Assembly: GCA_003645645.1 (NCBI GenBank)
Contig: QNBH01000008.1
Span: 1-42,388 of the forward strand
Length of the DNA: 42,388 nt
Source: Spirochaetota bacterium
Lineage (GTDB): Bacteria > Spirochaetota > Spirochaetia > SPDA01 > B32-G16
Direction of reading: 5' to 3'
Part shown: in pieces, positions 3,691 through 40,316 of the stretch
Position numbering within the stretch: the first letter of the stretch is position 1
How the letters are laid out: every line of letters starts with the position of its first letter
Translations under genes and position numbers: made by a program
The notes under the pieces: model-generated
Told to the model about the DNA's origin: nothing
The model's database searches: none
What the model saw: the letters and a program-made list of their open reading frames with translations, nothing else

Positions 3691-3804
3691 TCATGGAACC
3701 TCAATATCAAAGAAATGACACCTGTTACAAAAAAATACGGATTCACCATGAATCCGATGGCAAAAGTTACAGTTTATCTCTCCCATGTGGGAATCGTGGG
3801 GATT
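3691..3804 (-). pseudogene. 3' remnant of a cytochrome c3-type/flavocytochrome tetraheme domain
   Basis: Frame reads NPHDSHMGEINCNFCHRIHGESVFFCNRCHFFDIEVP*, with two CxxCH motifs resembling the end of fumarate-reductase-type tetraheme domains. No upstream part is present. Confidence 0.5.
3729..3756 (-). terminator. rho-independent terminator-like hairpin downstream of the SGNH gene
   Basis: Minus strand CGGATTC-ATGGT-GAATCCG followed by TATTTTTTT (7-bp perfect stem). Confidence 0.5.
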
Positions 3805-3854: not shown

Positions 3855-4802
3855 TTAATCCCGATGATTTATGAGTACTTCTTTCAAATGATTTTCGAGA
3901 AAACACAGCATCCCTTCCCGATTTAAATGATCGGGATTGTAAAAATATTCCTCTTTGTTACAAACAAGGGTAAAATCGTAAAAGGCTACATCATACTTAT
4001 CCAGTACTTCCTTAATTTCATTATTAAACCGCTCTTCGTTTGGTATAAGCTCATAGAACTCTTTACGAAGAGGTGTTTTTATTACCATTACCTCGATTTT
4101 TTCGGACTGCAAATACTCAATCATCTGTATAAACTCTTGAATGTATTTATTAAAGAGATCTTTGTTAACTTCCTCAGGATAGAGGTAGTCTATCCGCTCT
4201 TTATCTACCCGTTCTGTGGGCTCATAGTTTTTCTCGAAGCTCTCTTCATCTTCCGGAATATCTGGTTTAAAGCGATCATGATTATTTATTTTAACGAAAC
4301 CTGATATATAATTTAAGGCAACTTTTATGTTCACTCCTCTCTTTACACTGTATGATAAGAGCAACCTGGCCAAAACCGGATCGAAAGGAGCTCTCCTGTA
4401 AAGGTCTACATCTTCGATTCTCTCGCCCTCATTCCACATTCTGGAATAAAAAATAAATGAATCCAGGACATAAAGAATATTCTTCGTTTTGTGCCTGGTA
4501 AGAAAATATTCAATTATAAGCCGGTTAAGAACAACTCCTGCACCGGGCATAGAGAGGTTTATGATTTTTGTATCGGTTTTTTGCTGGATCTGTTCTTTCA
4601 TGTCTTTAAAGGTAAAAGGCATGGCATGAGAGGAACCTAAAATAACGTAATCATATTCAATAAAATCGGCGTCTTTTACTTTAAAAAATCTATTCTCCTC
4701 TCCGTATTTATAAACCAATGTCTCTGACCACCAGTAAACTCCTGCATAAAGAATGAGCCCTATCACAGTAAAAAGTAAAACTCGTATACCAAAATTCTTC
4801 AT
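3855..4802 (-). CDS. SGNH/DltD-like membrane-anchored protein, partner of the adjacent MBOAT
   Basis: N-terminal TM, ILGSSHAMPF block near the N-terminus, YNPDHLNREG block near the C-terminus, located directly after the MBOAT gene. Confidence 0.7.
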   Translation of the reverse strand: MKNFGIRVLLFTVIGLILYAGVYWWSETLVYKYGEENRFFKVKDADFIEYDYVILGSSHAMPFTFKDMKEQIQQKTDTKIINLSMPGAGVVLNRLIIEYFLTRHKTKNILYVLDSFIFYSRMWNEGERIEDVDLYRRAPFDPVLARLLLSYSVKRGVNIKVALNYISGFVKINNHDRFKPDIPEDEESFEKNYEPTERVDKERIDYLYPEEVNKDLFNKYIQEFIQMIEYLQSEKIEVMVIKTPLRKEFYELIPNEERFNNEIKEVLDKYDVAFYDFTLVCNKEEYFYNPDHLNREGMLCFLENHLKEVLINHRD

Positions 4803-4829: not shown

Positions 4830-6287
4830 TTAAAATTGCATATAGATAAACTGTTGTACTCCCCACTTTCCCAGAATGATCAATGAAAAAATAAGCACAT
4901 AATGAAAAGCCCATCTTACAGCCAGAGGTTTGGTTTTTAACCTTTCCCACACGCTCTTTCGTTCATCGATAATTTCGAAGATGATCAATATACCTATTAA
5001 AGCGAAGGAGATTAAAAGCTCGGGGGTAAAGTTATAAAACTTTAACAGCCTGGGAATCAGTTTTGCCCTTTTGCTAATATTACTCAGCATGTTAAATCCG
5101 TCTTCAATGGAGTTTACCCTGAAAAAGATCCAGGAAAAAAGAATAAGATGGAAAGTAAAGAGTGACCTTATTATGTTTATAACCGGATTGTCTTTTAGAA
5201 AGGGAACTGTATTCCCTATTTTCTTCCATAAAGGAGAACTTCCGACCGAAACCCACTGGTAAAATCCGTTTAAAGCCCCCCATATCATGAAGGTCCAGTT
5301 TACCCCATAGCCCAGTCCCGCATGCCATAGTCCGCTTATCACAAATACAATCATCAAATTAGCGTAATGTCTGGGTACACCCGCACGGCTACCCCCAAGT
5401 GGGATATACAAATAATCGCGGAACCAGCTCGCCAGCGAAATGTGCCATCTCTTAGCCCAGAACTCCGAAGGGGATTTTGAAAGATAGGGACGACGGAAGT
5501 TCTCCATAAGCTCGAACCCCATAAGTTTTGCAGCTCCCCTGGCTATATCTGTATACCCCGAAAAATCACAATATATTTGAAATGCGAAAAAATAAATTCC
5601 AATAATAATATCTATAGGAGGAGCATAGGCTGGTTTGCTGAAAACATTGTCCACAAAGGGAGCAATTCTGTCAGCAATAACCACTTTCTTAAACAATCCC
5701 AACAGGATCAGGTAGAAACCCATACTTGCTTTTTCCTGATCAAAATGAATTTTTTCCCTTAATTGGGGCAGGAAAGTACGAGCTCTTTCTATAGGACCTG
5801 CGAAAATCTTGGGAAAGTAGGATACATAGAGACCGAACCTTCCCAGATGAGGTTCTGCCTCCATGTCTTTTCGATATACATCAACTATGTAGGTTACGGT
5901 CATAAAAATGTAAAACGAAAGCCCGACCGGTAAAAATAAGTCTGGCTGAGGTATAGAGGTATTTAAAGCACTGTTTAACTGTTCTACAGCAAAATCTGCA
6001 AATTTAAAAACAGCTAATAATCCAAGGTTTATTAAACAACCGATACCCAGAAATAATTTTTTTCTTCCCTGATCTTCATCTGCGTGTTTTATTCCCAAAC
6101 CACAAAAGTAAGCGACCAGAGTAGAGATAACCAGAAGTAGCGGCGGAAGAAGCTTCCATGACCATGATATGTAGAAATATAGACTTGCAATTAGAAGCCA
6201 TGTCCACCTGTATTTATGGGGGATTATAAAAAAAAGAACGACAACAACACCCAGAAAAAGCAGGAAGGAAAAAGAATTAAAGAGCAT
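4830..6287 (-). CDS. MBOAT family O-acyltransferase (AlgI/DltB-like)
   Basis: FPKIFAGPIERARTFLPQ, YCDFSGYTDIARGAAKLMGF, NFRRPYLSKSPSEFWAKRWHISLASWFRDYLYIPLGG, SGLWHG-like motif; AAGGAGG RBS before MLFNSF. Confidence 0.93.
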   Translation of the reverse strand: MLFNSFSFLLFLGVVVVLFFIIPHKYRWTWLLIASLYFYISWSWKLLPPLLLVISTLVAYFCGLGIKHADEDQGRKKLFLGIGCLINLGLLAVFKFADFAVEQLNSALNTSIPQPDLFLPVGLSFYIFMTVTYIVDVYRKDMEAEPHLGRFGLYVSYFPKIFAGPIERARTFLPQLREKIHFDQEKASMGFYLILLGLFKKVVIADRIAPFVDNVFSKPAYAPPIDIIIGIYFFAFQIYCDFSGYTDIARGAAKLMGFELMENFRRPYLSKSPSEFWAKRWHISLASWFRDYLYIPLGGSRAGVPRHYANLMIVFVISGLWHAGLGYGVNWTFMIWGALNGFYQWVSVGSSPLWKKIGNTVPFLKDNPVINIIRSLFTFHLILFSWIFFRVNSIEDGFNMLSNISKRAKLIPRLLKFYNFTPELLISFALIGILIIFEIIDERKSVWERLKTKPLAVRWAFHYVLIFSLIILGKWGVQQFIYMQF

Positions 6288-6302
6288 TTTCGCCTCCTTT
6301 TT

Positions 6303-6337
6303 CAAATAAAGCAGGGAAACAGGAAATGTTTCCCTGC
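6303..6337 (-). terminator. rho-independent terminator-like hairpin between cytochrome and MBOAT genes
   Basis: Perfect 11-bp stem GCAGGGAAACA-TTTCC-TGTTTCCCTGC followed by TTTATTTG on the minus strand. Confidence 0.6.
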
Positions 6338-6967: not shown

Positions 6968-7354
6968 CTAAATTTTATCACCACCTGCGTAATATAAATC
7001 TGTATAATCGACTTTTACTTCCTGATTTTCACTCACCTCTGTTTCTTCACCGCTCTCGGCCTCTTCGGCCTGTTCGGAACTCTTCTCTCCATCAACATCT
7101 TCCAGAGAGAAGACTTCCACTTCTATTACTCTTCTGGCTCTTTCCCTTGGAAACTTTGTTTGCCTCAGCCTGTCGATCATGTAACTGGTTTTTTCATCAT
7201 AGAATTGTTCCATACATTTTTTACAGACCCGTGCAGGAATATCTTCTATAAGTACAGGTTTTTCATTAAACCATAAAAACGTTTTCACCGTATCCTCATA
7301 GGTTAATGAACCGCAATAATTGCACCTAAAATCTCTTGTTTCTTCCTCTCCCAT
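6968..7354 (-). CDS. YgiT-type zinc-ribbon protein with acidic tail
   Basis: CNYCGS ... EDIPARVCKKCMEQFYDEKT, typical of MqsA/YgiT N-terminal zinc fingers. Confidence 0.65.
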   Translation of the reverse strand: MGEEETRDFRCNYCGSLTYEDTVKTFLWFNEKPVLIEDIPARVCKKCMEQFYDEKTSYMIDRLRQTKFPRERARRVIEVEVFSLEDVDGEKSSEQAEEAESGEETEVSENQEVKVDYTDLYYAGGDKI

Positions 7355-7457
7355 AAACTTCGTTTCCTCTATTCTTAGATTTTATCTAATTAAACGAACT
7401 GTGGAGAAAGATATAGACAATCCTTCCCCACAGAATTGACCGAAGATAGATTTATTT

Positions 7458-8441
7458 TTACTTTCTAAGTAACGCCTTGGCTGCCTCATATACATGAGTA
7501 CCGTTGGGTTTCATGTAATTGAACATCTCGGGTGCACCGGGAGGTGGGGCGTCCGGAAAAGCAATTCGTTTGAACTTTACCCCATCTGTAAACTCTGCTA
7601 TTCTGGCAATTACTTCGGCCCCCGGACAGAGGGTGTACTTTGACTGGTCAACCGTTAATACCCTACCCGTCTTCTTTGCAGATTTTACCAGCGTTTCTGT
7701 ATCCATGGGATTGAGGCATCTCAGATCAATCGTCTCCACGCTTATACCATCACCCTGGAGTTTTTGAGCACCTTCCATTGCTGCGAGCATACCCTGGCCT
7801 GAGCTTACTATTGTCAGATCTGAGCCCCGTGTTCTAACAGCGGCTTTCCCAATAGGAACCTCGTAGGGAGTATCGGGAATATCGTCTGATAGTGCACGGA
7901 AAGCACTGCCATTTAGGTATACGAAGGGATCCTTGCTTTTTACCGCGGTAATCATTAGCCCTTTGGCATCATAAACTGTAGAAGGAATCACCGTCCTTAC
8001 CCCTGGGACATGGGCGTACCAGCTATCAGCCTCGTAGTCCGAGTGCTGCCCTGCCAGCCCAGGCCCCTGACCAGATATATGTATAACCCACACTGCTGGA
8101 ATCGTTGCCTGACCTCCGGTCATATGATGTAGCTTTGCTGCATGTTGACTTACGATTTCAAAAGGATAGGGATTTGCCATGTACATATCATGCCAGTCAA
8201 TGGCTATAGAGCCCACCAGTGCTGCCCCTAAAGTGGCACCTGCATACCACATTTCATCGAGACCCGAGTATCGCACCCGGTCCTCTCCGTATTTTTTTGT
8301 TAAATCTATCGTAGGAAGGCCTGGGGCAGTTGCTATGGGTGTGGTTGCTTCATACCAAAAAATAAAATCATCTGTCCCCAGTTGTTCTAATGCCTGTACA
8401 ATGCCTTCCATTTGCGCATAAAACCAACCTTTCATCGACAT
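7458..8441 (-). CDS. 2-oxoacid dehydrogenase E1 component, beta subunit
   Basis: Transketolase-like beta fold: HMTGGQATIPAVW, GQGPGLAGQHSDYEADSWYAHVPGVRTVIPSTVYDAKGLM, IDLRCLNPMDTETLVKSAKKTGRVLTVD. Confidence 0.88.
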   Translation of the reverse strand: MSMKGWFYAQMEGIVQALEQLGTDDFIFWYEATTPIATAPGLPTIDLTKKYGEDRVRYSGLDEMWYAGATLGAALVGSIAIDWHDMYMANPYPFEIVSQHAAKLHHMTGGQATIPAVWVIHISGQGPGLAGQHSDYEADSWYAHVPGVRTVIPSTVYDAKGLMITAVKSKDPFVYLNGSAFRALSDDIPDTPYEVPIGKAAVRTRGSDLTIVSSGQGMLAAMEGAQKLQGDGISVETIDLRCLNPMDTETLVKSAKKTGRVLTVDQSKYTLCPGAEVIARIAEFTDGVKFKRIAFPDAPPPGAPEMFNYMKPNGTHVYEAAKALLRK

Positions 8442-8514: not shown

Positions 8515-9771
8515 TTAAGCGTACGTTTTCCAGGGCGGACAATCTGCCAGCATTCTGGGAAGAACAGATTCCTCTTCAACAAACACATGTCTTAAGCCAT
8601 CCTCCGCCCTTGGCACCGGCTGAGCCTCTGCCCATCTAAAGGCATCCCTTATCTCTGCCTTTACCTCTTCTTCCAGTGCATCTGCCTCTCTTTCGGTTAA
8701 CATGCCCGTCTGAACAAGTGTCTTCCTGTGTTTATCGATTGGATCACGGGCAAGCCACGACAGGAGTTCTCTGTCAGAACGATATCCGAGGCCGAAGGAC
8801 CCGAGTTTTCCCGGTTCGGCTCCCCTTACTCCAAAGTGATCGTAATATCTGTAAGTTTTACACTCAATCAGAGTAGGACCTCTCCCGGCTCTTGCCCGCT
8901 CTACCGCTGCTTTTACGGCATTGTACACATCGAGTACATCCATTCCATCCACAACCACACCAGGAATATTATAAGCAGTCGCCATGATCGCTATGTCATC
9001 GACATTGATGCATTCTGAAATGTGCTGTCCTCGTGCATCCAGATACTGGTTGTTCTCAATTACATAAACCCAGGGGATTTTGTGGGTAGCAGCCTCGTTC
9101 AGTGAAATATGGAAATAGGGAGTTGTAGCGTGAGCATCGCCTCCGAAAGTAAGCGCCACCTGCCCCTTTCCTCTGGCTCTTAAGGCATGGCCTGCTCCAG
9201 CCCCGTAACAACAGCCTGGACCCACAACACCATCCTCACCGAGCATCCCCACATCGGCCTGCATGATGTGCATGGAGCCTCCATAACCGTTGTTGGTTCC
9301 GGATGCTTTAAATATTATCTCTGCCGCCATTTTCCTGATATTTGCACCCTTGGCAATTGCATGGTGATGGCTTCTGTGGTATCCTGCCATCCAGTCGTCT
9401 TTGTTCAAGGCAAAACAGGCGCCGACAGCACATGCCTCATGACCCGGCGAGCCGTGCATATATCCGCGGAAGCCTTTCTCTGTGAGCATCTTATCGGCTA
9501 CCGTGCGGTCATACCATCTGATCTGAAGCATTTTCCTCTGCATTTCGATAAGCTGCTCCCTTGTAAGTCTTTCGGGCCAGTAAATGTCTCTTTCCAGTGG
9601 TATTTTCGATACAGGCTCCTGCTCAGGTGTAGCCAGCAATCTCGTCCCGGTAGTAAATAAGGCAACGCTTGCTCCGGTTACCCCAAGACCCTTCAGGAAG
9701 TTTCTTCGGGAAATAAAGCCCTTTCCCTCTGCTTTAACTTCCTCTACAGTTTTTTCGATAGTGTCAGACAT
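8515..9771 (-). CDS. 2-oxoacid dehydrogenase E1 component, alpha subunit, with TAT signal peptide
   Basis: YRSHHHAIAKGA, YGGSMHIM, FGGDAHATTPYFHISLNEAATHKIPWVYVIENN (ThDP site). N-terminus FISRRNFLKGLGVTGASVALFTTGTRLLATPEQEP fits SRRxFLK TAT motif. Start at second ATG gives 9-nt spacing to GGAGG. Confidence 0.88.
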   Translation of the reverse strand: MSDTIEKTVEEVKAEGKGFISRRNFLKGLGVTGASVALFTTGTRLLATPEQEPVSKIPLERDIYWPERLTREQLIEMQRKMLQIRWYDRTVADKMLTEKGFRGYMHGSPGHEACAVGACFALNKDDWMAGYHRSHHHAIAKGANIRKMAAEIIFKASGTNNGYGGSMHIMQADVGMLGEDGVVGPGCCYGAGAGHALRARGKGQVALTFGGDAHATTPYFHISLNEAATHKIPWVYVIENNQYLDARGQHISECINVDDIAIMATAYNIPGVVVDGMDVLDVYNAVKAAVERARAGRGPTLIECKTYRYYDHFGVRGAEPGKLGSFGLGYRSDRELLSWLARDPIDKHRKTLVQTGMLTEREADALEEEVKAEIRDAFRWAEAQPVPRAEDGLRHVFVEEESVLPRMLADCPPWKTYA

Positions 9772-9908: not shown

Positions 9909-10223
9909 TTAGCTTAATTTGTGTGCTAACTCTTTTAGACTCCCTCTTTCGCTGCCTTCCCTGCTATTTAAAAGAACTGTCTGTGTTGAATTGCTCCATT
10001 TGGGATTTTTTGGAGCTGATAATAAGTGTAATTGGAAATGGTCGTTATACCAGAGTATTGGTAGACTGCCATTCCCGTAAAGGTAATTTGATAGAACTGC
10101 GGGTGTTTCTTTAAGATAGGACTCATACGAAGAAAATAAGATCTTCCCATAATCCCGAGAAATTGAAAACAGCTCGTTCTCTTCTTTTACAACTTTCTTC
10201 TTTACATTAAGAGTTTCAAGCAT
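9909..10223 (-). CDS. hypothetical protein, 104 aa
   Basis: ORF downstream of a consensus sigma70 promoter. Confidence 0.45.
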   Translation of the reverse strand: MLETLNVKKKVVKEENELFSISRDYGKILFSSYESYLKETPAVLSNYLYGNGSLPILWYNDHFQLHLLSAPKNPKWSNSTQTVLLNSREGSERGSLKELAHKLS

Positions 10224-10260: not shown

Positions 10261-10289
10261 ATTATATACCATAAAATTCACTTTGTCAA
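10261..10289 (-). promoter_or_regulatory. sigma70 promoter
   Basis: Perfect TTGACA - 17 nt - TATAAT on the minus strand. Confidence 0.75.
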
Positions 10290-11933: not shown

Positions 11934-12260
11934 TCAACCGGTTTTGTTAGAATCTGATTCATAAGAAGATGGTGGTTTGTGATCGGATTCTTTAGATTCT
12001 GATTCGTTGGAAGCAGATGGGTTCTTTTCTGTATTACCGGATTCTTTTGATTCCAGATTGCTCCCTACCTTTTCGATCGAGCTTAACTTTATGTTTTTCT
12101 CCATTTCATCTACAATTTTTAACATATCGTTGTAAAAGCCGGTAATTTGTTTGTAAAATCTTCCTATTTTCCTGAAAATACCTGGTAAGTCCCTGGGATT
12201 TATAAATATTATAATAAGAATGAGGATAATTATTATCTCCCAAAATCCAATTCCAAACAT
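11934..12260 (-). CDS. tatB: TatB-like translocase protein
   Basis: MFGIGFWEIIIILILIIIFINPRDLPGIFRKIGRFYKQITGF: TatB-like N-terminus; directly upstream of tatA. Confidence 0.75.
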   Translation of the reverse strand: MFGIGFWEIIIILILIIIFINPRDLPGIFRKIGRFYKQITGFYNDMLKIVDEMEKNIKLSSIEKVGSNLESKESGNTEKNPSASNESESKESDHKPPSSYESDSNKTG

Positions 12261-12323
12261 GACCCTTACAAGAAACGAAACATTTAAACTAGCAAAATGA
12301 GAAAAATCGGGACTATACCAAGT

Positions 12324-12353
12324 AGTATAGTATAGCAAGATACCAGTAGTCAA
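12324..12353 (-). promoter_or_regulatory. sigma70 promoter for tatB-tatA-ctp
   Basis: TTGACT - 18 nt - TATACT on the minus strand (an overlapping TATACT lies at 13 nt). Confidence 0.5.
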
Positions 12354-14574: not shown

Positions 14575-15639
14575 ATGAGCGCTTACAACAGAAGGTTCGT
14601 TCTTGTAACAGGAGCCTCAGGCTTTATCGGAAGACACCTGGCACGGGTCCTTATGGAAAGAGGCTACTCCGTACGAGCGGTATACAGAAGGGAGAACCCT
14701 CCTCTCATGCTCAAAGAATTGGAAACAAAAGGTGCAGAACTTCTCCGCCTGGATCTATCCGTAGGTGAGAATCTGTTGAGGGCGGTTTCGGGTGTTGATC
14801 GGGTAATTCATGCAGCGGCCATAGCATCAGACTGGGGAAAGTACGAAATCTTTCACAAATACAATTATGAGATGGCCATAAGCCTTCTGGAAGCGTCAAA
14901 GGAGAGCGGTTGTTCGGTTTTTGTGTATTTAAGCTCGGTTTCGGTTCACGGTTTCGGTAATCATGTGGAAAGTACCGAGGAAGGACCTTACTATCCACCG
15001 GTAAGTTTTTATCAGGAAACCAAGAAAAAGGCAGAGGACTATGTGCTTGCGCAAAATCAAACAGGATACGATAAAGAGGGAAACAAACTTTCTGGAAGAG
15101 CTCTTAAGACAACTGTCATTCGGCCAGGAAATGTATACGGTCCCGAAGATGGCACAACGTTTTTCCCCATTTTCGAAGCAATGGAGAGGGGGATAATGGG
15201 ATACATCGGAAAGGGGCATACCCTTACCTGCCCTGTTTATGTAGAGGATCTGGCAGAAGCAGTTATCCTTGCCATGGAAAAAGAGGAAAGTGCAGGAAAG
15301 TGTTTTAACATAACCGGCGGAGAGAGGGTTACATGGAGAGAACTGCTTAAGTACTGTTCGAGCTTACTTGGCTGTAAACCTCCTGTGTTGAGTATTCCCG
15401 TACCGGCAGCCTTTTTTCTTGCCCATTTAATGGAGTTTATTTTTAAAATGATAGGAATTAAATCTGCACCCCCCCTTACCCTTTACAGAGTCGCCCAGTT
15501 ATCGCACAACTATCACTTTAATATTTCCAGGGCCGAAAAGTTACTCGGGTTTAAGCCAAAAATCCCATGGAAAGAAGGGTTTAAGAGAACTGTATTAGAC
15601 TACCTTGAGAACTACAAACCGGTAGAGAAATCCCTGTAG
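14575..15639 (+). CDS. NAD-dependent epimerase/dehydratase (3-beta-HSD-like extended SDR)
   Basis: VLVTGASGFIGRHLARVL, SSVSVHGFG, YQETKKKAE, RPGNVYGPED; AAAGGA RBS before ATG 14575. Confidence 0.88.
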   Translation: MSAYNRRFVLVTGASGFIGRHLARVLMERGYSVRAVYRRENPPLMLKELETKGAELLRLDLSVGENLLRAVSGVDRVIHAAAIASDWGKYEIFHKYNYEMAISLLEASKESGCSVFVYLSSVSVHGFGNHVESTEEGPYYPPVSFYQETKKKAEDYVLAQNQTGYDKEGNKLSGRALKTTVIRPGNVYGPEDGTTFFPIFEAMERGIMGYIGKGHTLTCPVYVEDLAEAVILAMEKEESAGKCFNITGGERVTWRELLKYCSSLLGCKPPVLSIPVPAAFFLAHLMEFIFKMIGIKSAPPLTLYRVAQLSHNYHFNISRAEKLLGFKPKIPWKEGFKRTVLDYLENYKPVEKSL

Positions 15640-16316
15640 CATACATGAAGACTCCGTCCCTCTGTGCAAAGGGCTCCAACATAACCGGGAAAGGGATCTA
15701 TATCTCTAGCTATCCACGAGCCGGCTGAATAAATATCTCCCTCGGCACTTATCAAAATAGAAGATAGACTTTCGTCTATATCCGTAACGGCTACTCCCTT
15801 TGCCTTTGCCAGTGCCTCAATACGACTCCATATACGGAAAAAACGGGAAGTCCGGTCGTCAAATATTTCACCCGCTTCGATGCCGGCTCTTTCTTCAACA
15901 GAAAAAAACCGCTCAAGAATTGCATCGGCATGTTTTAAGGGTCTTAGCTTCTCAAGATCAACACCCACCTCTCTATCTACACTAACTGCCACCAGTGCGT
16001 AATCTCCACTGTGGGAAAGATTGAAGTGGATTTGTTGTTTACAGAAGAAAAGGAGAGGTTTCCCCCTCTCTCCTGATACGAACTGTATTTCCCCCGGTTC
16101 TTCTTTTATGTAACTGCTCAGTATCTCTCTTAAACAGCCACGTGCTGCCAAATAATGCTCGCGTTCTCTGTAAGAATAGAATCTCTGCGCTCTTTCAAGC
16201 TCATCTGCAGAGAGAAGTTTTTTAAGTCTTTGAACCTCCCTATCCGGCCGATCCAGAGAGACCCTCCAGAGATGGATCGAGTTGTCTTTACTTCCTTTCG
16301 GTGATTCCATTTTCAT
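15612..16316 (-). CDS. Sfp-type 4'-phosphopantetheinyl transferase
   Basis: FNLSHSGDYALVAVS, EVGVDLEKLRP, FFSVEE, FFRIWSRIEALAKAKG. Confidence 0.9.
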   Translation of the reverse strand: MKMESPKGSKDNSIHLWRVSLDRPDREVQRLKKLLSADELERAQRFYSYREREHYLAARGCLREILSSYIKEEPGEIQFVSGERGKPLLFFCKQQIHFNLSHSGDYALVAVSVDREVGVDLEKLRPLKHADAILERFFSVEERAGIEAGEIFDDRTSRFFRIWSRIEALAKAKGVAVTDIDESLSSILISAEGDIYSAGSWIARDIDPFPGYVGALCTEGRSLHVCYRDFSTGL

Positions 16317-20513: not shown

Positions 20514-21722
20514 TTACTTCTTAACCATTGTAATAGCACCTCGAACACATAAGTCAATACAGGTAGAGCAGCCGGTGCATTCATCCGGATCAATTACAGT
20601 AGTCGTATCTCCAGGATGGGTTATGGCACTACAGTGGCCGATATTCCAGCACAACCCACAGGCATTGCACCGCTCCTTCTCCACTACCGCGTATCCTTCG
20701 TGGATCCTCAATTCAGCGGCAGAGGCAATATTTTTTAGAAGCAAATCTCTGAAATCTCCTATCTTTCTGTACCCCATCTCCTGCATATATTTTTCTAGCT
20801 CCTCCAATAGTGAAGGCATCCAGTCGAATCCCCTGATTATTGTCTCTGTACAGATCCAGATCGCATCGGCTCCAACCATTATCTGCCGGACAGCACTCTG
20901 CAGATCCGTAACTCCACCGGAGCCGATTACAAAGGGTTCTTTACCCAGATAATAGCGCATCTCGTAAGTATCTCTTAATGCCAGCGGCCTTATCCACGGG
21001 CCAGAAAGACAGCCAAGGGTAATCTGATCCTGCAACCTGTAGATAGATTTCATGGGCTCATATATATCGATATCCGGTATTCCAAGCCTGTTTGCAGTGC
21101 TTCCCACCGCTGCTGCTCCGGCCTGTATGGAAGCGTAGGCCGCCTGTGCTATTTTACCACCCTCGGGAGTTAGCTTGACTATAATGGGGATATTTACCGC
21201 ATCCACAATAAGCTTTACCACCCCGGGTAGCTGTTTGAGGTCGGACCCCAGAGTGGCACCCGTAGCCTTTGTAGAAGGCTCCCCGGTAGTGGTAAGATTA
21301 AAGGACATATTCGGACAGCACATGTTAAGCTCTATGGCCTGGGCACCGGCATCTTCGAACCTCTTCGCAAGCACTGCCCATCCCTCATGCTCCTCTCCGT
21401 CGTAGGTTATGGTGGGGAAAATTACCATCTCTTTGGCTACTTTCCGTGCCTGCTCCAGAAGCTTCAGGGATTGATCGGCCGTAAGTCGGGTTTCTGCGGT
21501 AAAAATGTGAATCTTCTGACGTCTCAGCCATCTGTACCTCGGAGGTAGATTGATGTAAGGAGCAGGATCAATGGCAAGCTTTATGGATGCTCCCCCCCAT
21601 CCATTATCTTCTGCCTTTCGAATCTGTTCCAGGTTCTTCATCGTGGGGCCTGCTCCTACGATGAAAGGATTCCTTAGAGTAAGGTTACCCATTTTAACCG
21701 ATAAATCCACTGCCTGTGTCAT
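20514..21722 (-). CDS. dihydroorotate dehydrogenase/PreA-like flavoprotein with C-terminal 2[4Fe-4S] ferredoxin domain
   Basis: LRNPFIVGAGPTMKN, AIELNMCCPN, VIGSGGVTDLQSAVRQIMVGADAI, CNACGLC...C and CTGCSTCIDLC. Confidence 0.82.
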   Translation of the reverse strand: MTQAVDLSVKMGNLTLRNPFIVGAGPTMKNLEQIRKAEDNGWGGASIKLAIDPAPYINLPPRYRWLRRQKIHIFTAETRLTADQSLKLLEQARKVAKEMVIFPTITYDGEEHEGWAVLAKRFEDAGAQAIELNMCCPNMSFNLTTTGEPSTKATGATLGSDLKQLPGVVKLIVDAVNIPIIVKLTPEGGKIAQAAYASIQAGAAAVGSTANRLGIPDIDIYEPMKSIYRLQDQITLGCLSGPWIRPLALRDTYEMRYYLGKEPFVIGSGGVTDLQSAVRQIMVGADAIWICTETIIRGFDWMPSLLEELEKYMQEMGYRKIGDFRDLLLKNIASAAELRIHEGYAVVEKERCNACGLCWNIGHCSAITHPGDTTTVIDPDECTGCSTCIDLCVRGAITMVKK

Positions 21723-21738
21723 CTATTTTATCCTCCGG

Positions 21739-23130
21739 TTAAGGAATAAGTTCTCTGTATTTATTCTCTATCCGTTTAAGCTCCCTTTTCTGCTCTTCTG
21801 AAAGAATGGGCTCTTTTTCTTCTGCGATAATATTATCTACATAATCGACAGCCCTGTGCTTGAGTGTATCCCTCTCTCCAGCTGATGATCTCTGCTTTCG
21901 TACCAGGAATCGTGGTTCAAAAACGCTTCCCCGAAAATACTTAAATGTTTTCTCCGATTGAAGGTAATCGCCTGTAATTCCAACTTTGCGTATCTCATCC
22001 AGGGAGATGGTTTCATCGTTTACCTCAAAGCCGAGTAGATACTTCCTTGTCATCCCGACTATTTCATTATCTATAACCGCCTGTACGGGAGAGATGGTCT
22101 TCTCCGATTCGAGCTGTCCCACTCCCCATATAACACTGACCTTAGCCTGGGCATGGGCCAACGCCGCCATCGCTTTCTCCAGGGCATTCTGACTGTCAAA
22201 ATGAAGCGAGTCCGTGCACATCCATGATACAGAGGGCAGGTGGTAATACCTGGCCATTTCCGCACCTGCTACAGCCAGCATTATGTTCTCCGGTCCTCCC
22301 GTTACTGCGAAGCCCGAACGCATATCCATCACATGGGCAAACCCCAGATTGAAGAAACATGGCCTTCCCTGCTCCATTACCTGATTTATCACTATGCCGC
22401 TTAAAATCTCTGCCGTTCCTACGGTTACGGTACCCGCCACTGTAACAGGTGCGGTTGCACCTGACATGGGCTCTCCGTTTACCGTACAGGGAACCCCATG
22501 ACCCGCAGTTGCCTTGAAAAGTCCCAGAGCCAGAGAAGTCCATCTCAATGGGCCGTGTGCGGTGAAACCAACACTGAAAACAGGATAATCCCTCAAGTTT
22601 CTCTCCCCTGCAAGTACCTTTCCCATCTCAACCATGGCCTCCCCGCCTTTTGGTGTGAAGGAGAGGGTTCTTAAATGTTTGGAGGTGTTTTCCGCCATAA
22701 TCCTCAAGCCCACAAAATCCCTGTGGGAAGGTTTCACATCCTCCAGGCTGGTTCCTACAACCGCATCGACCTCAGAAAGAGAATCGATGACTTTTGCAAA
22801 ATTCCCTAAATCCTTTGTTTTTATGTGGCGGAATCCCTCTCTGTCCGAGTAAAAGAGCGCTGCTCCCGTCCAGAAAAGGGGTCCACCCTCCGGAGTTACG
22901 GTCCATATATTCCCCCTCCTGTCCGCAATGGGGAAGCTCTCCGGTGCCATTCCCAGGTACTCTTCCACCATTGCTCGGGGGAAACGTACATCCATGGGAC
23001 CTCCTCCCGGTTTTGCCCCGCGTGAAAGGAGGGCGGAAACCAACTGCTCATCCTCTACCCTTACACCGGGGTTTTCCAGCAGGCTTTTCGCGGCATTATC
23101 TATAAGTTCTCTGTCATGATCTGAAAGCAT
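21739..23130 (-). CDS. MttB superfamily (trimethylamine methyltransferase-like) protein, non-pyrrolysine type
   Basis: Full-length ORF without internal amber codon; LLENPGVRVEDEQLVSALLSRGA, AGTVTVGTAEILSGIVINQVMEQGRPCFFNLGFAHVMDMRSGFAVTGGPENIMLAVAGAEMARYYHLPS. Confidence 0.85.
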   Translation of the reverse strand: MLSDHDRELIDNAAKSLLENPGVRVEDEQLVSALLSRGAKPGGGPMDVRFPRAMVEEYLGMAPESFPIADRRGNIWTVTPEGGPLFWTGAALFYSDREGFRHIKTKDLGNFAKVIDSLSEVDAVVGTSLEDVKPSHRDFVGLRIMAENTSKHLRTLSFTPKGGEAMVEMGKVLAGERNLRDYPVFSVGFTAHGPLRWTSLALGLFKATAGHGVPCTVNGEPMSGATAPVTVAGTVTVGTAEILSGIVINQVMEQGRPCFFNLGFAHVMDMRSGFAVTGGPENIMLAVAGAEMARYYHLPSVSWMCTDSLHFDSQNALEKAMAALAHAQAKVSVIWGVGQLESEKTISPVQAVIDNEIVGMTRKYLLGFEVNDETISLDEIRKVGITGDYLQSEKTFKYFRGSVFEPRFLVRKQRSSAGERDTLKHRAVDYVDNIIAEEKEPILSEEQKRELKRIENKYRELIP

Positions 23131-23132
23131 AA

Positions 23133-23840
23133 TTACTCCTCAATTCCGAGATAGGCCTTTTTTACTATGGGATCTTCGGCGATTCTCTTCCCCTCACCCT
23201 CCGCAACTATCCTTCCTGTTTCCAGCACATAAGCATAATCGGAAATGTTGAGGGCTTTCTGAGCATTCTGCTCTACAAGAAGAATCGTTAGACCTCGATT
23301 GTTGAGTTCTTGTATCATATTGAAAATTTCGAGTACGAGTTTGGGAGCCAGACCCAGAGAAGGTTCATCCAGCAGGAGAATCCTGGGATCGGACATGAGA
23401 GCCCTTGCTATGGCAAGCATCTGTTGTTCCCCTCCGGAGAGGGTGCCTCCGTCCTGATTTTTTCTCTCTCCGAGAACCGGGAAAAGTTCGAACATGCGTT
23501 GCATATTTTCTTCGACCTTCTCTCCCCCCTTTAATGTATATGCTCCCAGAATCAGGTTCTCCTGTACCGTTATGGAAGGGAAAATCCTCCTGCCCTCCGG
23601 TACCTGGACTATGCCTTTCTTTACTATTTCTTGTGGGGGAATAAGAAGACTCTCACCATCCAGTTTTACATTGCCTCCGGAAGGGATTACCATACCGCTT
23701 ATGGTGTTTATTGTTGTGGATTTACCCGCACCGTTGGCTCCAACCAGCCCTACAATCTTTCCGTCAGGGATGGTTATGGAAACATTATCCAGGGCGGTGA
23801 TTCCACCGTAGCAGACAGTGAGGTTCTCAACCACAAGCAT
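23133..23840 (-). CDS. livF: branched-chain amino acid-type ABC transporter ATP-binding protein LivF
   Basis: GANGAGKST, LSGGEQQMLAIARALM, LLLDEPSLGLAP. Confidence 0.93.
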   Translation of the reverse strand: MLVVENLTVCYGGITALDNVSITIPDGKIVGLVGANGAGKSTTINTISGMVIPSGGNVKLDGESLLIPPQEIVKKGIVQVPEGRRIFPSITVQENLILGAYTLKGGEKVEENMQRMFELFPVLGERKNQDGGTLSGGEQQMLAIARALMSDPRILLLDEPSLGLAPKLVLEIFNMIQELNNRGLTILLVEQNAQKALNISDYAYVLETGRIVAEGEGKRIAEDPIVKKAYLGIEE

Positions 23841-23845
23841 GGCCG

Positions 23846-24616
23846 CTAAACCTCTTCACCAAGGTATGCCTGAAGTACCTCCGGATTTTTCTTTATCTCT
23901 TCCGGTTTTCCCTCTGCAATTTTCAGCCCGAAATCGAGCACATGAATTTTACTGCAAATATTCATAACCAGTTCCATGTGATGTTCTACAATTATAATCG
24001 AAAGTCTCTTCTCTTCTTTTATTTTATATATCAGTTCTATCAAGTTGTGAATTTCTCTGGGGTTTAGCCCCGCAGCAGGCTCATCGAGAAGAAGAAGGGA
24101 AGGTTCGAGCATGAGTGCTCTTGCCAGCTCAAGCCTCCTCTGAAGCCCATAGGGAAGACTATCGGGGCGTTGCATTGAGTATTTCTCAAGGTGAAAGTAT
24201 GAAAGGTAAGAACGGGCTATCTTTTCTAACCTTTTCTCCTGAGAGACCACCCGTGGCAATCTAAACATCTCCTCCCATGTACTGTACGAGAGCCTGGTGC
24301 CTCCAGCCATCATAAGGTTTTCCAGTACATTTAAATTGTGAAAAAGGCGGATGTTCTGGAAGGTCCTGGCGATGCCAAGCCTCGTTATACAGTGTGAGGG
24401 CAGGCTTGTTATCTCGGTTCCATCAAAGAAAATACGCCCGGAATCGAGTGGTTGCACCCCTGTAATTAAATTGAAGGCCGTGGTTTTACCGGCACCATTC
24501 GGGCCTATTATCCCCGAAATCTCCTCTCTTCCCTGCACCATGGAGAAGTCCTTAACCGCGGCTACTCCTCCGAAGCTCTTGGAAATGGAATCCACTTCAA
24601 GAAGAGCCATCTTCAA
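23846..24616 (-). CDS. livG: branched-chain amino acid-type ABC transporter ATP-binding protein LivG
   Basis: GPNGAGKTTAFNLITGVQPLDSGRI, GLQRRLELARALMLEPSLLLLDEPAAGLNP. Confidence 0.93.
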   Translation of the reverse strand: MKMALLEVDSISKSFGGVAAVKDFSMVQGREEISGIIGPNGAGKTTAFNLITGVQPLDSGRIFFDGTEITSLPSHCITRLGIARTFQNIRLFHNLNVLENLMMAGGTRLSYSTWEEMFRLPRVVSQEKRLEKIARSYLSYFHLEKYSMQRPDSLPYGLQRRLELARALMLEPSLLLLDEPAAGLNPREIHNLIELIYKIKEEKRLSIIIVEHHMELVMNICSKIHVLDFGLKIAEGKPEEIKKNPEVLQAYLGEEV

Positions 24617-25485
24617 TCCTTCCCCTTACGCGGTGCGGTGTGGAAAGATGGCAGGATTCCCAACCATCGTAAGGATAATTCCCAATTTCCGAAAAGACCT
24701 CTGTGTCGGAAAATGACTATTACGATCACAAGAAGGGCAAGTATCACATCTCGCCACACGCTTGCAAACCTGAAAACCTCGCCGAAAGTATAATATAAAA
24801 TAGAAGTTAAAAAAACTCCGGAGAGGCTGTTTAATCCACCTACAAACACGATAACTATAAGCTTTGCAGACTCGAGCCAGTCGAAAAGGTTAGGTTCTAT
24901 AAACATTATATTAAAGGCATAGAGGGCTCCTCCGTATGAGCATATTACAGAGGCAAGAACAAACACCTTCATCTTGTGCCCGTACACGTTTACTCCCATT
25001 GACTGAGCGGCAAGTTCATCATCCCGAATGGCGATACAGTTCCTTCCGAAACGGCCGCCTTTTAAATTGCCGATCAGGAAAACAATGATTACCATGGAAA
25101 CAGCAATCATGGGCAGGCCCACCAGTTTAGGCATACCAGCCACCCCGAGAGCACCACCTGTCAGTTGAGCCGTCCAGAGGAGAAGAGCCCTCACCATTTC
25201 GCTGAACCCAAAGGTAACCAGCAGGAAGTAATCCCGTCTCAATTTGAGAGTAGGCAGCCCTACTATAATACCTCCCACCACTCCCATGAGTACCGCCAGA
25301 AGAGTTGCCAGTGGAAAGGGGAAACCGAAACGGAGGTAGGTAATCGAAGCAGTATATGCGCCAAGCGAGATAAATGCACCCTGACCGAGAGAGAAGAGAC
25401 CGGTTAGCCCGGTCATAAGGTATATTCCCATAACAAAAATTGAGTAAAGCAGGGTTACCTCTGCTACTTTTGCATAAAAAGCCAT
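24613..25485 (-). CDS. livM: branched-chain amino acid-type ABC transporter permease LivM
   Basis: Multi-TM; AIRDDELAAQSMGVNVYGHKMKVFVLASVICSYGGALYA. Confidence 0.92.
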   Translation of the reverse strand: MAFYAKVAEVTLLYSIFVMGIYLMTGLTGLFSLGQGAFISLGAYTASITYLRFGFPFPLATLLAVLMGVVGGIIVGLPTLKLRRDYFLLVTFGFSEMVRALLLWTAQLTGGALGVAGMPKLVGLPMIAVSMVIIVFLIGNLKGGRFGRNCIAIRDDELAAQSMGVNVYGHKMKVFVLASVICSYGGALYAFNIMFIEPNLFDWLESAKLIVIVFVGGLNSLSGVFLTSILYYTFGEVFRFASVWRDVILALLVIVIVIFRHRGLFGNWELSLRWLGILPSFHTAPRKGKD

Positions 25486-25494
25486 GCTAAAACC

Positions 25495-26379
25495 TTATGC
25501 CTTTATAGTGTATAATTTTCCTGCAATACCCTGCGGACGAACGAGAAGGAGAATTATTATACCTGCATAGATAACAATTGGTGTAACGGCAGCTCCGAGC
25601 TCTGCAATAAGCAGAGATTCCACTACCCCGAGCAGTACACCTGCAATGCCACCTCCTGTAAGACTACCCATTCCGCCTACAATGGCTGCAATTATCCCCT
25701 TTAATATAAAACTTCCAATAAAGGGTGTTACCGTATAGGTCATACCGAGAAAATAGCCTGTTATTCCGGCGAGCACTCCTGCAATGAAAAAAGTAATAGA
25801 AATTATAAAATCTGTATTTATTCCCATGAGTGAAGGAGTCCAGATATCCGAAGAAGCCGCTCTGATGGCAATCCCCTGTTTGGTCTTTCTTAAGAAAAGT
25901 GTCAGCCCCAGGAGCACAAGTGCTGAAATAAAAAGCATCATCAGATAGGTCTTTGAAACCACCAGTCTGCCGATATGAAGGGCGGTTTTTTTTATAAACT
26001 CCGGATAGGGGTAATAATCGTATCCCCATAAAGCAGAGAAGAACTGCTGTACGAGCATGGCTACGGTGATTGAGTTAACAAAAAAATAGGTTAGAGGCCT
26101 GCCCTTGATTCTAATAGGTCTGAAAACAAGCTTCTCTACCAGAACACCAACCACGCCACCCAGAAGAGTTGTTGCAAGAAGAGTTATCCAGAGGCTGCCT
26201 GCTACCCTGGTAGCTAAAAAGTAACCGAGGTAGGCACAGATAGCCACCACTCCTCCGTGAGAGAAGTTGGAGAACTTTAAGACGTTAAAAATGATACCGA
26301 AGCCTACTGCCATCAGGGCATAGACTCCCCCAAGAGAGATACCGTTTATCAACTGCTGGAAAAAGATATTTAAATTCAT
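25495..26379 (-). CDS. livH: branched-chain amino acid-type ABC transporter permease LivH
   Basis: QQLINGISLGGVYALMAVGFGIIFNVLKFSNFSHGG; AIVGGMGSLTGGGIAGVLLGVVESL. Confidence 0.93.
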   Translation of the reverse strand: MNLNIFFQQLINGISLGGVYALMAVGFGIIFNVLKFSNFSHGGVVAICAYLGYFLATRVAGSLWITLLATTLLGGVVGVLVEKLVFRPIRIKGRPLTYFFVNSITVAMLVQQFFSALWGYDYYPYPEFIKKTALHIGRLVVSKTYLMMLFISALVLLGLTLFLRKTKQGIAIRAASSDIWTPSLMGINTDFIISITFFIAGVLAGITGYFLGMTYTVTPFIGSFILKGIIAAIVGGMGSLTGGGIAGVLLGVVESLLIAELGAAVTPIVIYAGIIILLLVRPQGIAGKLYTIKA

Positions 26380-26532
26380 GTGCAGTTAAAACAGTATAAA
26401 CGACGTTACCAAAAGTGTCAATCAAGGGTATTCCTTACAGTTCCGATAATCGAAACGCAGTTGTTGTTAATAAAACTTGATTTTAATTCATCCGTGATAT
26501 AAACTTTAAAAAAAATCAATCAGGAGGTTTTT

Positions 26533-27726
26533 ATGAAAAGATTTTTTTACCTGATGCTTTCACTGGCAATTATTCTTCTTTCGGCAGGAATGGTCTTTGC
26601 CGAAGGAACGAAAGAGGAAGCAGGGCCGATAAAAATCGGGATGTATGCAGACCTTAGTGCAGGAACGGCACAATGGGGTACCGATGCAGAGAAGGGAGCA
26701 AAACTTCGAGTAAAAGAAGAGAATGAGAAGGGTGGGATTATGGGTCGAAAGATCGAGCTTGTAGTCTACGATTGTAAAATGAGCCCCACCGAAGCTGTAA
26801 AAGCGTATACACGGCTTGTCCAGGAAGATAAAGTCTGTGCCGTGTACGGCTCACTTATTTCCAATACAGCCCTTGCAGTCTCTCCTGTAGCAGCACAAAT
26901 GAAGGTTCCAGTAGTCTCCAGAGCCATGGATGAGAGAGCAACCACTCCCGGATTCGATCCCGATAATCCCGAGAAGGATATTCCGCCCAACCCCTATTTC
27001 TTTCTCCTGCAACCCTCCGCTTTCCAGCAGGCAGCGGTAATAGCGGGATATGCCATCGATGAGCTTGGCATGAATACTTTTGCCATGCTCTACGACGAGG
27101 GGAATGCGTACGCAGTCTATCTGGCAAAGGGATTCGAATACTATGTTAAGAAGAGAGGAAAACAAATGCTTGGCTCTTTTACCTTTCAGGCTGGAGATAT
27201 GGACTATAAGGCTCAATTAACAAAAATTAAATCCTTAGGGCCTGACGGTCTCTTTATCCCCAACTACGTTACCCAGAACGCCAATGCTGTAAAGCAGGCC
27301 AGGGAGCTCGGTCTCGAGACAACTTTCCTCGGCAATAATTCCTGGTACAAACCCATGGATGAGGTAGCCGGAGCAGCAGCAGACGGTTCCTACTTTCCCA
27401 ACAATATATCCATGGACGATCCTTCTCTTAAATGGTTTTTCGATACATACAAAAAAGAGTGGGGTGAGGAGCCGAGGCTGCACTCCTTTTCCGGGTATGA
27501 CGATGTGGGGTTTATCATCGAAGCTATAAGAAATGCTCAATCGACAGATCCACAGAAAGTACGTGATGCCATGGAGGCGACACGACAGTTCGAAGGCACA
27601 ATAGGAACCATCAATATCGATCCGAAAACCCATCGTCCTGTTAACTTACCGATGTCAATCCTCTATTTCGATGGCGCAACTATAAAAACTGCAGAGCTTA
27701 AGTATCTGCCCAAACCAATTGAGTAG
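26533..27726 (+). CDS. ABC transporter periplasmic substrate-binding protein (LivK type)
   Basis: Signal peptide ...VFAEGTKEEAG; PIKIGMYADLSAGTAQWGTDAEKGAKLRVKEENEKGGIMGRKIELVVYDCK. Confidence 0.93.
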   Translation: MKRFFYLMLSLAIILLSAGMVFAEGTKEEAGPIKIGMYADLSAGTAQWGTDAEKGAKLRVKEENEKGGIMGRKIELVVYDCKMSPTEAVKAYTRLVQEDKVCAVYGSLISNTALAVSPVAAQMKVPVVSRAMDERATTPGFDPDNPEKDIPPNPYFFLLQPSAFQQAAVIAGYAIDELGMNTFAMLYDEGNAYAVYLAKGFEYYVKKRGKQMLGSFTFQAGDMDYKAQLTKIKSLGPDGLFIPNYVTQNANAVKQARELGLETTFLGNNSWYKPMDEVAGAAADGSYFPNNISMDDPSLKWFFDTYKKEWGEEPRLHSFSGYDDVGFIIEAIRNAQSTDPQKVRDAMEATRQFEGTIGTINIDPKTHRPVNLPMSILYFDGATIKTAELKYLPKPIE

Positions 27727-33084: not shown

Positions 33085-34431
33085 ATGGACATTGTAGAAT
33101 ATATATCTCCCGATCGTATCTTTTTTCTTAAAAACACAAAGAAATTACCGGCAATACGGGAATTGATCCAATCTGCCTGTAAGACTATTCCCAATGTGGA
33201 TCCCGAAGAAGTCTTTCAAATCGTGTGGGAGAGGGAGAAGCAGGTAAGTTCTTGGATAGCAACGGGAATTGCCATTCCCCATGGACGTATTCCCGATTTG
33301 GGAGGATTTTATGTTGCCATTGGAAGAAGCAAGGAAGGGGTGGAATACGAATCTACCGATCAAAATCCTGTCAATCTTATGATTCTGATCCTGGGTGATT
33401 CGGGTGAACCAGACCATCATATCATGTTACTGGCTGAGGTAGCCCGGACCATAAAGATGGAACAGATAAAGGAGATGATTCTCTCCGCGGGTACAGAAAA
33501 TGAAATCTATGAAATAATACTTAACCGTAATCGCCTGATTCGTGAATCCCAGAGAGGGCTGTTAATCGATATATCCGGCAGGCTTCTGTCCCACGCCGTG
33601 AAACTTGCCTCAGAGCTGGATGCAAACGCAATTATACTCTATGTCGACGCCATGGCAGATATAAAACAGATCGCAGAACTTAGATCCCCGATTCCTTTAA
33701 TTCTTATTGCCCAGAGAGAATATCCGGAGTTACGTGAAATTAACACTGCACACAGTTTCTTGAGGATACCTTTCCCTGCCCTGAACCGAACAAACCAGGT
33801 AAGTATGATAATTTTGTTCGCCCTTTCCCAGGGTCTAATCCGTCGTAATGACCGGGTGGTCTGCCTTTTCGGTACTCCCGACCCGGCCGTAATGGATAAC
33901 CTGATGGTTATAGATGTCTCCCGGGAGATCCCCATCTTTCTCCCCGCTCATCCCACAAGCCTTCTGGGTGATGTGAAACCACCGGTACTGGAGAAGGTTC
34001 TTCACCTTGCCACTGCCATTTCTCTGGAAGGAAGAGAAGGCAAGCCAACAGGAGCTTTTTTTGTTCTTGGAGATTATGAAAATGTACGACAGATGAGCCA
34101 TCAGCTAATAATAAACCCTTTTAAAGGATACAAGGATGACGAGAAAAGCATACTCGATCCAAGCCTCGAGGAGACGGTGAAGGAGTTTTCCACACTCGAC
34201 GGTGCCTTTCTCGTAAGGGGGGATGGAGTCATCGAAGCTGCGGGTGCTTACCTGAGGTTTCCGAAGGCAATAGCGGAACTGCCTTCAGGTCTGGGAGCCC
34301 GCCACGCAGCAGCAGCAAATATAACCGCCTATACCAGGGCTCTCTCCGTTGCGGTTTCACAGTCAACAGGCAGAGTAAGCCTTTTTAAATCCGGAAGGTT
34401 GATAGTAAACCTGGATAAGCCCAGGGCTTAA
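33085..34431 (+). CDS. PTS EIIA-2 domain / PK_C-like domain / diadenylate cyclase (DAC) domain fusion
   Basis: EIIA: TGIAIPHGRIPDL phosphorylatable His. Middle: RLLSHAVKLASELDANAIILYVD. DAC: LDGAFLVRGDGVIEAAGAYL...LGARHAAAANITAYTRALSVAVSQSTGRVSLFKSGRLI. Confidence 0.75.
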   Translation: MDIVEYISPDRIFFLKNTKKLPAIRELIQSACKTIPNVDPEEVFQIVWEREKQVSSWIATGIAIPHGRIPDLGGFYVAIGRSKEGVEYESTDQNPVNLMILILGDSGEPDHHIMLLAEVARTIKMEQIKEMILSAGTENEIYEIILNRNRLIRESQRGLLIDISGRLLSHAVKLASELDANAIILYVDAMADIKQIAELRSPIPLILIAQREYPELREINTAHSFLRIPFPALNRTNQVSMIILFALSQGLIRRNDRVVCLFGTPDPAVMDNLMVIDVSREIPIFLPAHPTSLLGDVKPPVLEKVLHLATAISLEGREGKPTGAFFVLGDYENVRQMSHQLIINPFKGYKDDEKSILDPSLEETVKEFSTLDGAFLVRGDGVIEAAGAYLRFPKAIAELPSGLGARHAAAANITAYTRALSVAVSQSTGRVSLFKSGRLIVNLDKPRA

Positions 34432-34964
34432 GCGGATAGGTCGGGGAAATAAACCTCCCCTATGGTAACACATGTAATCTTCCCATCTACGATTGCCTGG
34501 CCTATCATTCTGGCAAAAAAACCATCCCGGTCCAGGCTCTTTGCAATCAGAAGCACCTCTTTATCAGGAAGTAGTGGTTCCATAAAGACAGCCCCTATAA
34601 CCCTGGTAGCCCTGACCGCTACAGGCCTGGCATCATCTTCAAGTACTTCGGTATTTTTGGTGATAAAATATGTGAGACACAACCCCAACTGGCCGATCAT
34701 CTCTATCTGAAATGAACCAGGATATACGGGGTAATCGGGGAAATGCCCTTTAAAAACGGGGTCTTCCTTCCGCATATAGCGCATACCGGTTATCAGCTCT
34801 TCCTCCAGAGAAATACCGGTTATTCTGTCCAGAAAAAGGAGTGGTTCTCTGTGAGGTATTAGCCTCTTTATATCTTCGTTCCGGAGGTCGAGGTTCCGGG
34901 GGAAATTTTCCAGGGGAAGAATTGGTTTCTTTCTGTGTTTTTTAAGAAGTGATTCGTATTCCAT
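34428..34964 (-). CDS. FabZ-like 3-hydroxyacyl-ACP dehydratase (hotdog fold)
   Basis: IPHREPLLFLDRITG ... VFKGHFPDYPVYPGSFQIEMIGQLG: catalytic His and Glu retained. Confidence 0.85.
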   Translation of the reverse strand: MEYESLLKKHRKKPILPLENFPRNLDLRNEDIKRLIPHREPLLFLDRITGISLEEELITGMRYMRKEDPVFKGHFPDYPVYPGSFQIEMIGQLGLCLTYFITKNTEVLEDDARPVAVRATRVIGAVFMEPLLPDKEVLLIAKSLDRDGFFARMIGQAIVDGKITCVTIGEVYFPDLSA

Positions 34965-35127
34965 ATTATTACAATAGTGTCACCCATATCGCGATCTTCG
35001 ATCGCAACTGAAAGGCCGAAAAGCGATGTGCTATGGGTTTCGGTAGTTTTTGTTTTTTCGCGTTTAAAAATTTAAGTAAAAAAACAAAATCTCGACTGTA
35101 CATAGCATAAAGAAGTTTGGTATCATG

Positions 35128-36631: not shown

Positions 36632-36693
36632 TTTTCACTCCTTGCTACTAAAGTTTTATTTTATAATAGCCGGATCACCAATCCGGTATCGGA

Positions 36694-38239: not shown

Positions 38240-38258
38240 ACCATCAACCCAAATTACT

Positions 38259-39068: not shown

Positions 39069-39071
39069 ACC

Positions 39072-40301: not shown

Positions 40302-40316
40302 AACAACCTCCTCAAT

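Follow-up and report, generated by a model that had tools for sequence, protein, structure and literature searches.

We describe a six-gene cassette in a Spirochaetota bacterium in which the alpha subunit of a ThDP-dependent 2-oxoacid dehydrogenase E1 carries a twin-arginine (Tat) leader and is constantly accompanied by c-type cytochrome, MBOAT and SGNH genes. The cassette lies in a stretch of DNA of 42,388 nucleotides, analysed as a whole and called here the window. E1 enzymes of this kind are textbook cytoplasmic or mitochondrial proteins that pass their acyl group to a lipoyl-E2. A conserved export tag together with constant haem-protein and acyl-shuttle partners points to an oxidation system that would lie outside the cytoplasm and has no earlier description, and we see about an even chance that the six genes form an operon whose products act as an extracytoplasmic 2-oxoacid oxidase/acyl-transfer system. 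If true, an exported E1 clade linked to cytochromes and to an acyl shuttle across the membrane, in an E2-less genome, would couple ThDP chemistry in a new way to both respiration and the transfer of acyl groups.

A preliminary description of this DNA had assigned the gene at 8515-9771 to an E1-alpha with a Tat leader. Both parts of that assignment, and its coordinates, held: the product matched Pfam E1_dh with 210.7 bits (E 3e-62), Pfam TAT_signal matched residues 20–38 with a score of 26.3 bits (E 6e-6; cut-off 22.7), and the score against NCBIfam TIGR01409 likewise exceeded its cut-off. The leader reads ISRRNFLKGLGVTGASVALFTTGTRLLATP. Residues R22, R23, F25 and L26 are invariant among 15 aligned cassette E1-alphas, down to 41% identity, and an AxA-like end is often present; the RRxF motif occurred in none of 34 E1-alphas from outside the cassette. 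The E1_dh domain and transketolase-type beta subunit, together with the ThDP motif, catalytic Glu and active-site His, place the pair in the 2-oxoacid dehydrogenase E1 superfamily, with the alpha subunit about 40% identical to ordinary E1-alphas. Both subunits scored below the PDH E1 equivalog cut-offs (alpha, 249.6 against 393.85; beta, 173.3 against 321). No POX-type ThDP/FAD domains were found in E1-alpha or E1-beta, which have the E1 and transketolase architecture only (a TPP_enzyme_C match was weak and below its cut-off).

Relatives of this E1-alpha, with 41–49% identity, are present in 14 Rhodobacteraceae-type genomes, and all retain the RRxFL leader; a first scan of bacterial species genomes had returned eight Rhodobacteraceae loci with E1-alphas 44–48% identical, several of them aligning from residue 1. 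When the Rhodobacteraceae-type group was sampled, matches were found in 10 of 298 genomes of the family and 2 of 387 of the class, and the single match among 399 genomes at the phylum level was the query centre itself. The window's own phylum gave one other match in 395 genomes, with 43% identity and neither the leader nor the cassette, and a tblastn search of plasmids returned ordinary E1s only (<42% identity) and no further cassette members. The cassette E1-alphas form one clade (support 100/99), which persisted when the leader was cut off before tree building (SH-aLRT 99). Given the invariant RRxFL, its absence from all 34 outsiders and the single clade, the leader is an old trait that this clade has retained, and not a chance feature. 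The most divergent cassette, L059, is 41% identical in E1-alpha, and the whole gene set is present in the cultured Rhodobacteraceae strain Sediminimonas qiaohouensis DSM 21189. The window E1-alpha sits on a long branch, and the cassette region has a GC content of about 38–48% (in a 44% window) compared with 63–71% for the homologous loci; for these reasons we judged a recent transfer from Rhodobacteraceae unlikely.

Alignment of the cassette proteins indicated that residues central to E1 catalysis are kept. The E1-alphas retain the GD...ENN ThDP motif and His312, the equivalent of H271-alpha in the G. stearothermophilus PDH E1, and in E1-beta the invariant Glu63 and His133 align with the ThDP-activating (catalytic) Glu and with H128-beta of the same enzyme. 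The loops that face the lipoyl group are remodelled. In the cassette profile (ENNLYHQY) a Gln stands where the Thermus loop (ENNFYAIS) has its gate Ile, and about 15 extra residues follow His312 in the lipoyl-engaging loop; L059 retains the gate Ile, so the substitution is not universal in the cassette. Roles have been assigned to both the gate loop and the lipoyl-engaging loop of E1, and in a normal E1 the gate mutant I206A-alpha showed a 13-fold increase in electron transfer to DCPIP while PDH-complex activity fell to a third (PMC2663715). In light of that behavior, the cassette loops would suit an electron acceptor other than lipoyl, though they do not prove one.

The host assembly (G000; 3.98 Mb, 380 contigs, 97% complete) contained no 2-oxoacid dehydrogenase E2 (PF00198), in a search that gave matches in 10 of the 14 genomes used as controls. 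Neither an E2 nor an E3 gene adjoins the E1 genes, as the preliminary description had remarked, and no E3 was seen in the window. The E1 therefore cannot act through a lipoyl-E2 unless one is encoded in the missing 3% of the genome. The assembly encodes one TatC (contig C139, E 1.5e-49), two cytochrome c assembly proteins and an acetate-type ligase whose score is below the equivalog cut-off; it contained no haem-copper oxidase. Two further E1-like genes lie on contigs C75 and C231 (L002 and L003), one of them a 668-aa frame that is possibly a fused alpha-beta.

The gene order Tat-E1-alpha, E1-beta, YgiT-type zinc finger, cytochrome c, MBOAT, SGNH was found by tblastn synteny in the window and in the 14 Rhodobacteraceae-type genomes, where reading frames in the GC-rich loci were assigned by a GC3-weighted call (coordinates for the window are given in the table below). 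The window has one gene for a mono-haem cytochrome c and the other cassettes have two in tandem. At individual loci a frame change splits the SGNH gene (L063), or the MBOAT gene is in pieces and the contig ends within the SGNH gene (L066/L037). The preliminary description had reported a c-type cytochrome gene downstream on the same strand, and had read the locus as a ThDP enzyme passing electrons to that cytochrome. The gene is there, and its conservation in every homologous locus makes the link stronger than a single neighbour would imply, electron transfer to the cytochrome being a proposal; the picture was incomplete in that it missed the YgiT zinc finger and the MBOAT and SGNH genes that immediately follow the cytochrome gene. 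No signal sequence was found in E1-beta (7458-8441) or in the YgiT protein (6968-7354), and the earlier suggestion that E1-beta is a hitchhiker on the alpha leader appears likely. The four Cys of the two CxxC pairs of the YgiT protein are invariant in 15 loci, and our guess is that it serves as a Tat-proofreading chaperone or a subunit of the complex.

Table. Features of the cassette region (window positions).
Feature	Position	Strand	Details
Sigma-70-like promoter, TTGACA-N17-TATAAT	10261..10289	-	12/12 consensus match only; upstream of 104-aa ORF and E1-alpha
104-aa ORF, between promoter and E1-alpha	9909..10223	-	No Pfam match; no homologue in related cassettes
E1-alpha with Tat leader	8515..9771	-	ATG at 9771, 418 aa; RR = residues 22-23; ThDP motif GD(A/G)..ENN; invariant His312
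E1-beta, no signal sequence	7458..8441	-	Transketolase_C 90.7 bits; Transket_pyr 41.7 bits
14-pair hairpin, E1-beta/YgiT gap	7399..7433	-	Consensus scan only
YgiT-type zinc-finger protein	6968..7354	-	TIGR03831 32.6 bits against cut-off 20.2
Mono-haem c-type cytochrome, hydrophobic N-terminal helix	6370..6939	-	CxxCH at 121-125
MBOAT acyltransferase, DltB/PatA-like	4830..6305	-	C-terminal FIYMQF = FXYXXF acyl-shuttle motif
Membrane-anchored SGNH protein, DltD fold	3855..4802	-	Invariant G-x-S58-H and D291/H292
Terminator-like hairpin and T run, directly 3' of SGNH gene	3738..3756	-	Consensus match only

The promoter match (10289-10261) and the terminator-like hairpin (3756-3738) bracket the 104-aa ORF and the six cassette genes. 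Promoter-like sites in the region numbered 22, against 18.9 expected in shuffles, and this one is the sole 12/12 match. We are unsure whether the 104-aa ORF is part of the unit; the hairpin between E1-beta and YgiT is a possible processing or attenuation site. A TatB/TatA-like gene lies upstream of the operon (11934-12353, minus strand), an adjacency not seen in the other cassette loci.

The cassette cytochromes belong to a divergent family. Their conserved N-terminal half contains F-x-P-x-GGR; their best PDB sequence match is weak (E 0.007) and confined to the surroundings of CxxCH, the region of likeness to the diheme cytochrome c DHC, QHNDH alpha and SorB, from which the cassette proteins differ in being mono-haem, in that N-terminal half and in conserving a His rather than a Met. 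A Foldseek search with a model of the cytochrome gave no significant fold match. One of 29 alignment rows lacks the first Cys of CxxCH. With this motif and a hydrophobic N-terminal helix, taken as its export signal, the window protein qualifies as a c-type cytochrome. About 25 residues past this motif His150 is nearly invariant (at least 90%), being missing in both L059 copies, which are short and have CxxCH. The alignment contains no conserved Met and, with the conserved His, this suggests His/His ligation of the haem, an arrangement that often gives a low potential.

The MBOAT protein, which more probably starts at a downstream ATG (6287), matched DltB structures with E 3e-19 and scored below the DltB equivalog cut-off (138.9 against 375). 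Every intact cassette homologue ends in F[VI]YM[QA]F, and the His of an SGxWH motif is conserved. For a model of the SGNH protein (pLDDT 91), DltD is the closest structure (E 2.7e-5). By motif and modelled fold, the two are a bona fide acyl-transfer pair. In PatA the acyl group is carried by the tyrosine of FXYXXF, a motif shared by DltX (PMC12148441).

Beside the cassette in 5 of the 14 Rhodobacteraceae loci (L036, L038, L041, L042, L061) are genes for an AMP-forming ligase and an acyl carrier protein (ACP); the window has no acetate-CoA ligase and ACP in that position. The L042 ligase scored above the acetate-CoA ligase cut-off (861 against 729 bits), and its gene overlaps that of the ACP in the manner of DltA-DltC. 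With no DltB equivalog, and with this ligase an equivalog for acetate rather than D-alanine, the cassette does not belong to the Dlt D-alanylation systems. Crp/Fnr-type regulators are found near the Rhodobacteraceae cassettes, and the L059 cassette adjoins GlcD-like and LldD-like 2-hydroxyacid dehydrogenases. Genes resembling those of an alternative F1F0 ATPase (TIGR03305-like) occur near the cassette at L042 (1-3766) and also at L063 and L066, with Crp/Fnr and CBS-domain genes. We take the regulators, the ATPase and the dehydrogenases beside L059 as context that favours an oxidative role without proving it.

In the mechanism we propose, E1-alpha and E1-beta would assemble with ThDP in the cytoplasm, and the Tat system would export the folded complex by way of the alpha leader, with beta hitchhiking. 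Tat is known to carry folded, cofactor-loaded complexes along with unsignalled partner subunits, as for PaoABC (PMC4273604), and the leader and its conservation make export of the E1 complex very probable. In the periplasm the E1 would decarboxylate a 2-oxoacid, pyruvate being our default guess, and the enamine-ThDP would pass two electrons singly to the mono-haem cytochrome(s) c of the cassette, in place of lipoyl-E2 and E3; we put the chance of this step slightly above even. In the DCPIP assay isolated E1 does oxidise pyruvate, yielding acetate plus CO2 in the absence of E2, with an artificial acceptor taking the electrons (PMC2663715). An exported E1 that oxidises a 2-oxoacid and reduces the co-encoded cytochrome(s) is in our view the most economical interpretation. 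The acyl group might then be freed as an acid or be handed to the MBOAT-SGNH pair by way of the serine of SGNH and the tyrosine of FXYXXF; as an E2 replacement the pair could deliver it to CoA or ACP at the cytoplasmic face, or take it from them. That no cassette is without the pair implies that the acyl group matters; a link between the pair and E1, like the direction in which acyl groups would flow, is speculative, and we hold both to be doubtful. Taken furthest, the cassette might be a vectorial 2-oxoacid dehydrogenase split across the membrane, in which exported E1 oxidises outside, cytochromes c replace E3, and the SGNH Ser and MBOAT Tyr replace lipoyl-E2 and bring the acyl group to CoA or ACP inside the cell, its energy perhaps being conserved there by an acetate-type ligase; this version seems to us unlikely. 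We thus regard export as well supported, electron transfer as moderately supported, and acyl coupling and its direction as speculative. Delivery of a lipoyl swinging arm by the MBOAT protein was considered and found no support, and reductive use of the E1 (2-oxoacid synthesis) was set aside, a c-type cytochrome being an unlikely donor.

Several observations count against the oxidase/acyl-transfer reading: a haem-copper oxidase is missing from the host, the cytochromes are a divergent family with a suggested haem ligation that is often of low potential, and an MBOAT-SGNH pair acting as an E2 substitute is, to our knowledge, without precedent. Ligase and ACP genes, moreover, accompany the cassette at only some Rhodobacteraceae loci, and the window has neither. 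Characterised MBOAT-SGNH pairs move acyl groups outward onto envelope polymers. In the main rival the ligase and ACP, or acyl-CoA, feed an MBOAT-SGNH pair that works like Dlt or PatAB and exports an acyl group to modify a glycan, lipid or protein of the cell surface; outside, the acyl donor or acceptor would be made or trimmed by the E1 and the cytochromes (for example an acyl group or acyloin from a 2-oxoacid). It draws on the FXYXXF motif, the DltD-fold SGNH protein and the adjoining ligase and ACP genes, with their Dlt-like overlap at L042. We nevertheless think it rather improbable: no recurrent polymer synthase, glycosyltransferase or polymer export gene was found across the cassette loci, and envelope acylation alone leaves the invariant cytochromes and E1 unexplained. 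The cassette does share with PatAB, AlgI-AlgJ/X and DltB-DltD (with DltX) a DltB-like MBOAT, a C-terminal FXYXXF, a DltD-fold SGNH protein with Ser/Asp/His and adjacent genes, and with Dlt the ligase and ACP at some loci; it differs from these pairs in lacking a polymer gene, in sharing an operon with an exported E1 and cytochromes, and in the acetate type of the L042 ligase.

A leaner alternative is a periplasmic 2-oxoacid:cytochrome c oxidoreductase whose product leaves as the free acid, with the neighbouring acetate-CoA ligase re-activating acetate and the MBOAT-SGNH pair unconnected to the reaction (acylating a component of the complex, for instance). The overall reaction, like the oxidation proposed above, would resemble that of PoxB, pyruvate:quinone oxidoreductase, in which a 2-oxoacid is oxidised without CoA or NAD and electrons enter the respiratory chain; PoxB, however, is a single-chain, cytoplasm-facing flavoprotein of the POX/acetolactate synthase family, whereas the cassette E1 is an alpha/beta enzyme without flavin and is predicted to be exported. 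The DCPIP chemistry of isolated E1, the acetate-type ligase at five loci, the 2-hydroxyacid dehydrogenases beside L059, and the Crp/Fnr regulators and occasional alternative ATPase at Rhodobacteraceae loci all fit, but the strict co-conservation of MBOAT and SGNH is left unexplained and we consider this alternative quite unlikely. A leader that plays no part in export, with the E1 cytoplasmic or anchored facing inward, is very improbable; leaders can anchor proteins, but this one has an invariant, clade-specific RRxFL, often with an AxA-like end, and the cytochrome and SGNH partners must work outside. Least probable of all is an ordinary PDH, BCKDH or acetoin dehydrogenase E1 served by E2 and E3 encoded elsewhere, to which the E1 fold and identity to ordinary E1-alphas might point. 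The equivalog scores are far too low, the lipoyl-facing loops are remodelled and export is predicted; with PF00198 absent from the assembly, we rejected an ordinary PDH with an unlinked E2 for this host.

Returning to the exported oxidase/acyl-transfer reading, the component families are all known, and in the literature searched (most subscription papers and preprints lying outside its scope) we found neither their combination nor a description of a periplasmic PDH or a Tat-exported ThDP E1. The nearest relatives of the enzyme itself are the alpha2beta2 E1s of PDH and branched-chain 2-oxoacid dehydrogenases (Thermus 1umd, G. stearothermophilus 1w85/3duf, human 1ni4), with which it shares the fold, ThDP motif, beta catalytic Glu and equivalents of His271-alpha and His128-beta, and from which it is set apart by the Tat leader, the changed gate loop, the lipoyl-loop insertion, the lack of a genomic E2 and the fixed cytochrome c and MBOAT-SGNH partners. 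Its predicted route of export resembles that of the Tat hitchhikers PaoABC and Hyd-2, in which one subunit bears the RR leader, the others are unsignalled, and cofactor is loaded before export.

Elsewhere in the window, the sequence alone indicated a dihydropyrimidine-dehydrogenase-type gene with ferredoxin motifs, a trimethylamine-methyltransferase-type gene and a branched-chain-amino-acid-type ABC transporter (20514-27726), possibly a set for the utilisation of methylated amines. A phosphopantetheinyl-transferase-like gene lies at 15612-16316, and a cluster of ketosynthase-, ketoreductase-, dehydratase- and enoyl-CoA-hydratase-like genes at 34428-42380 may encode a fatty-acid or polyketide pathway.
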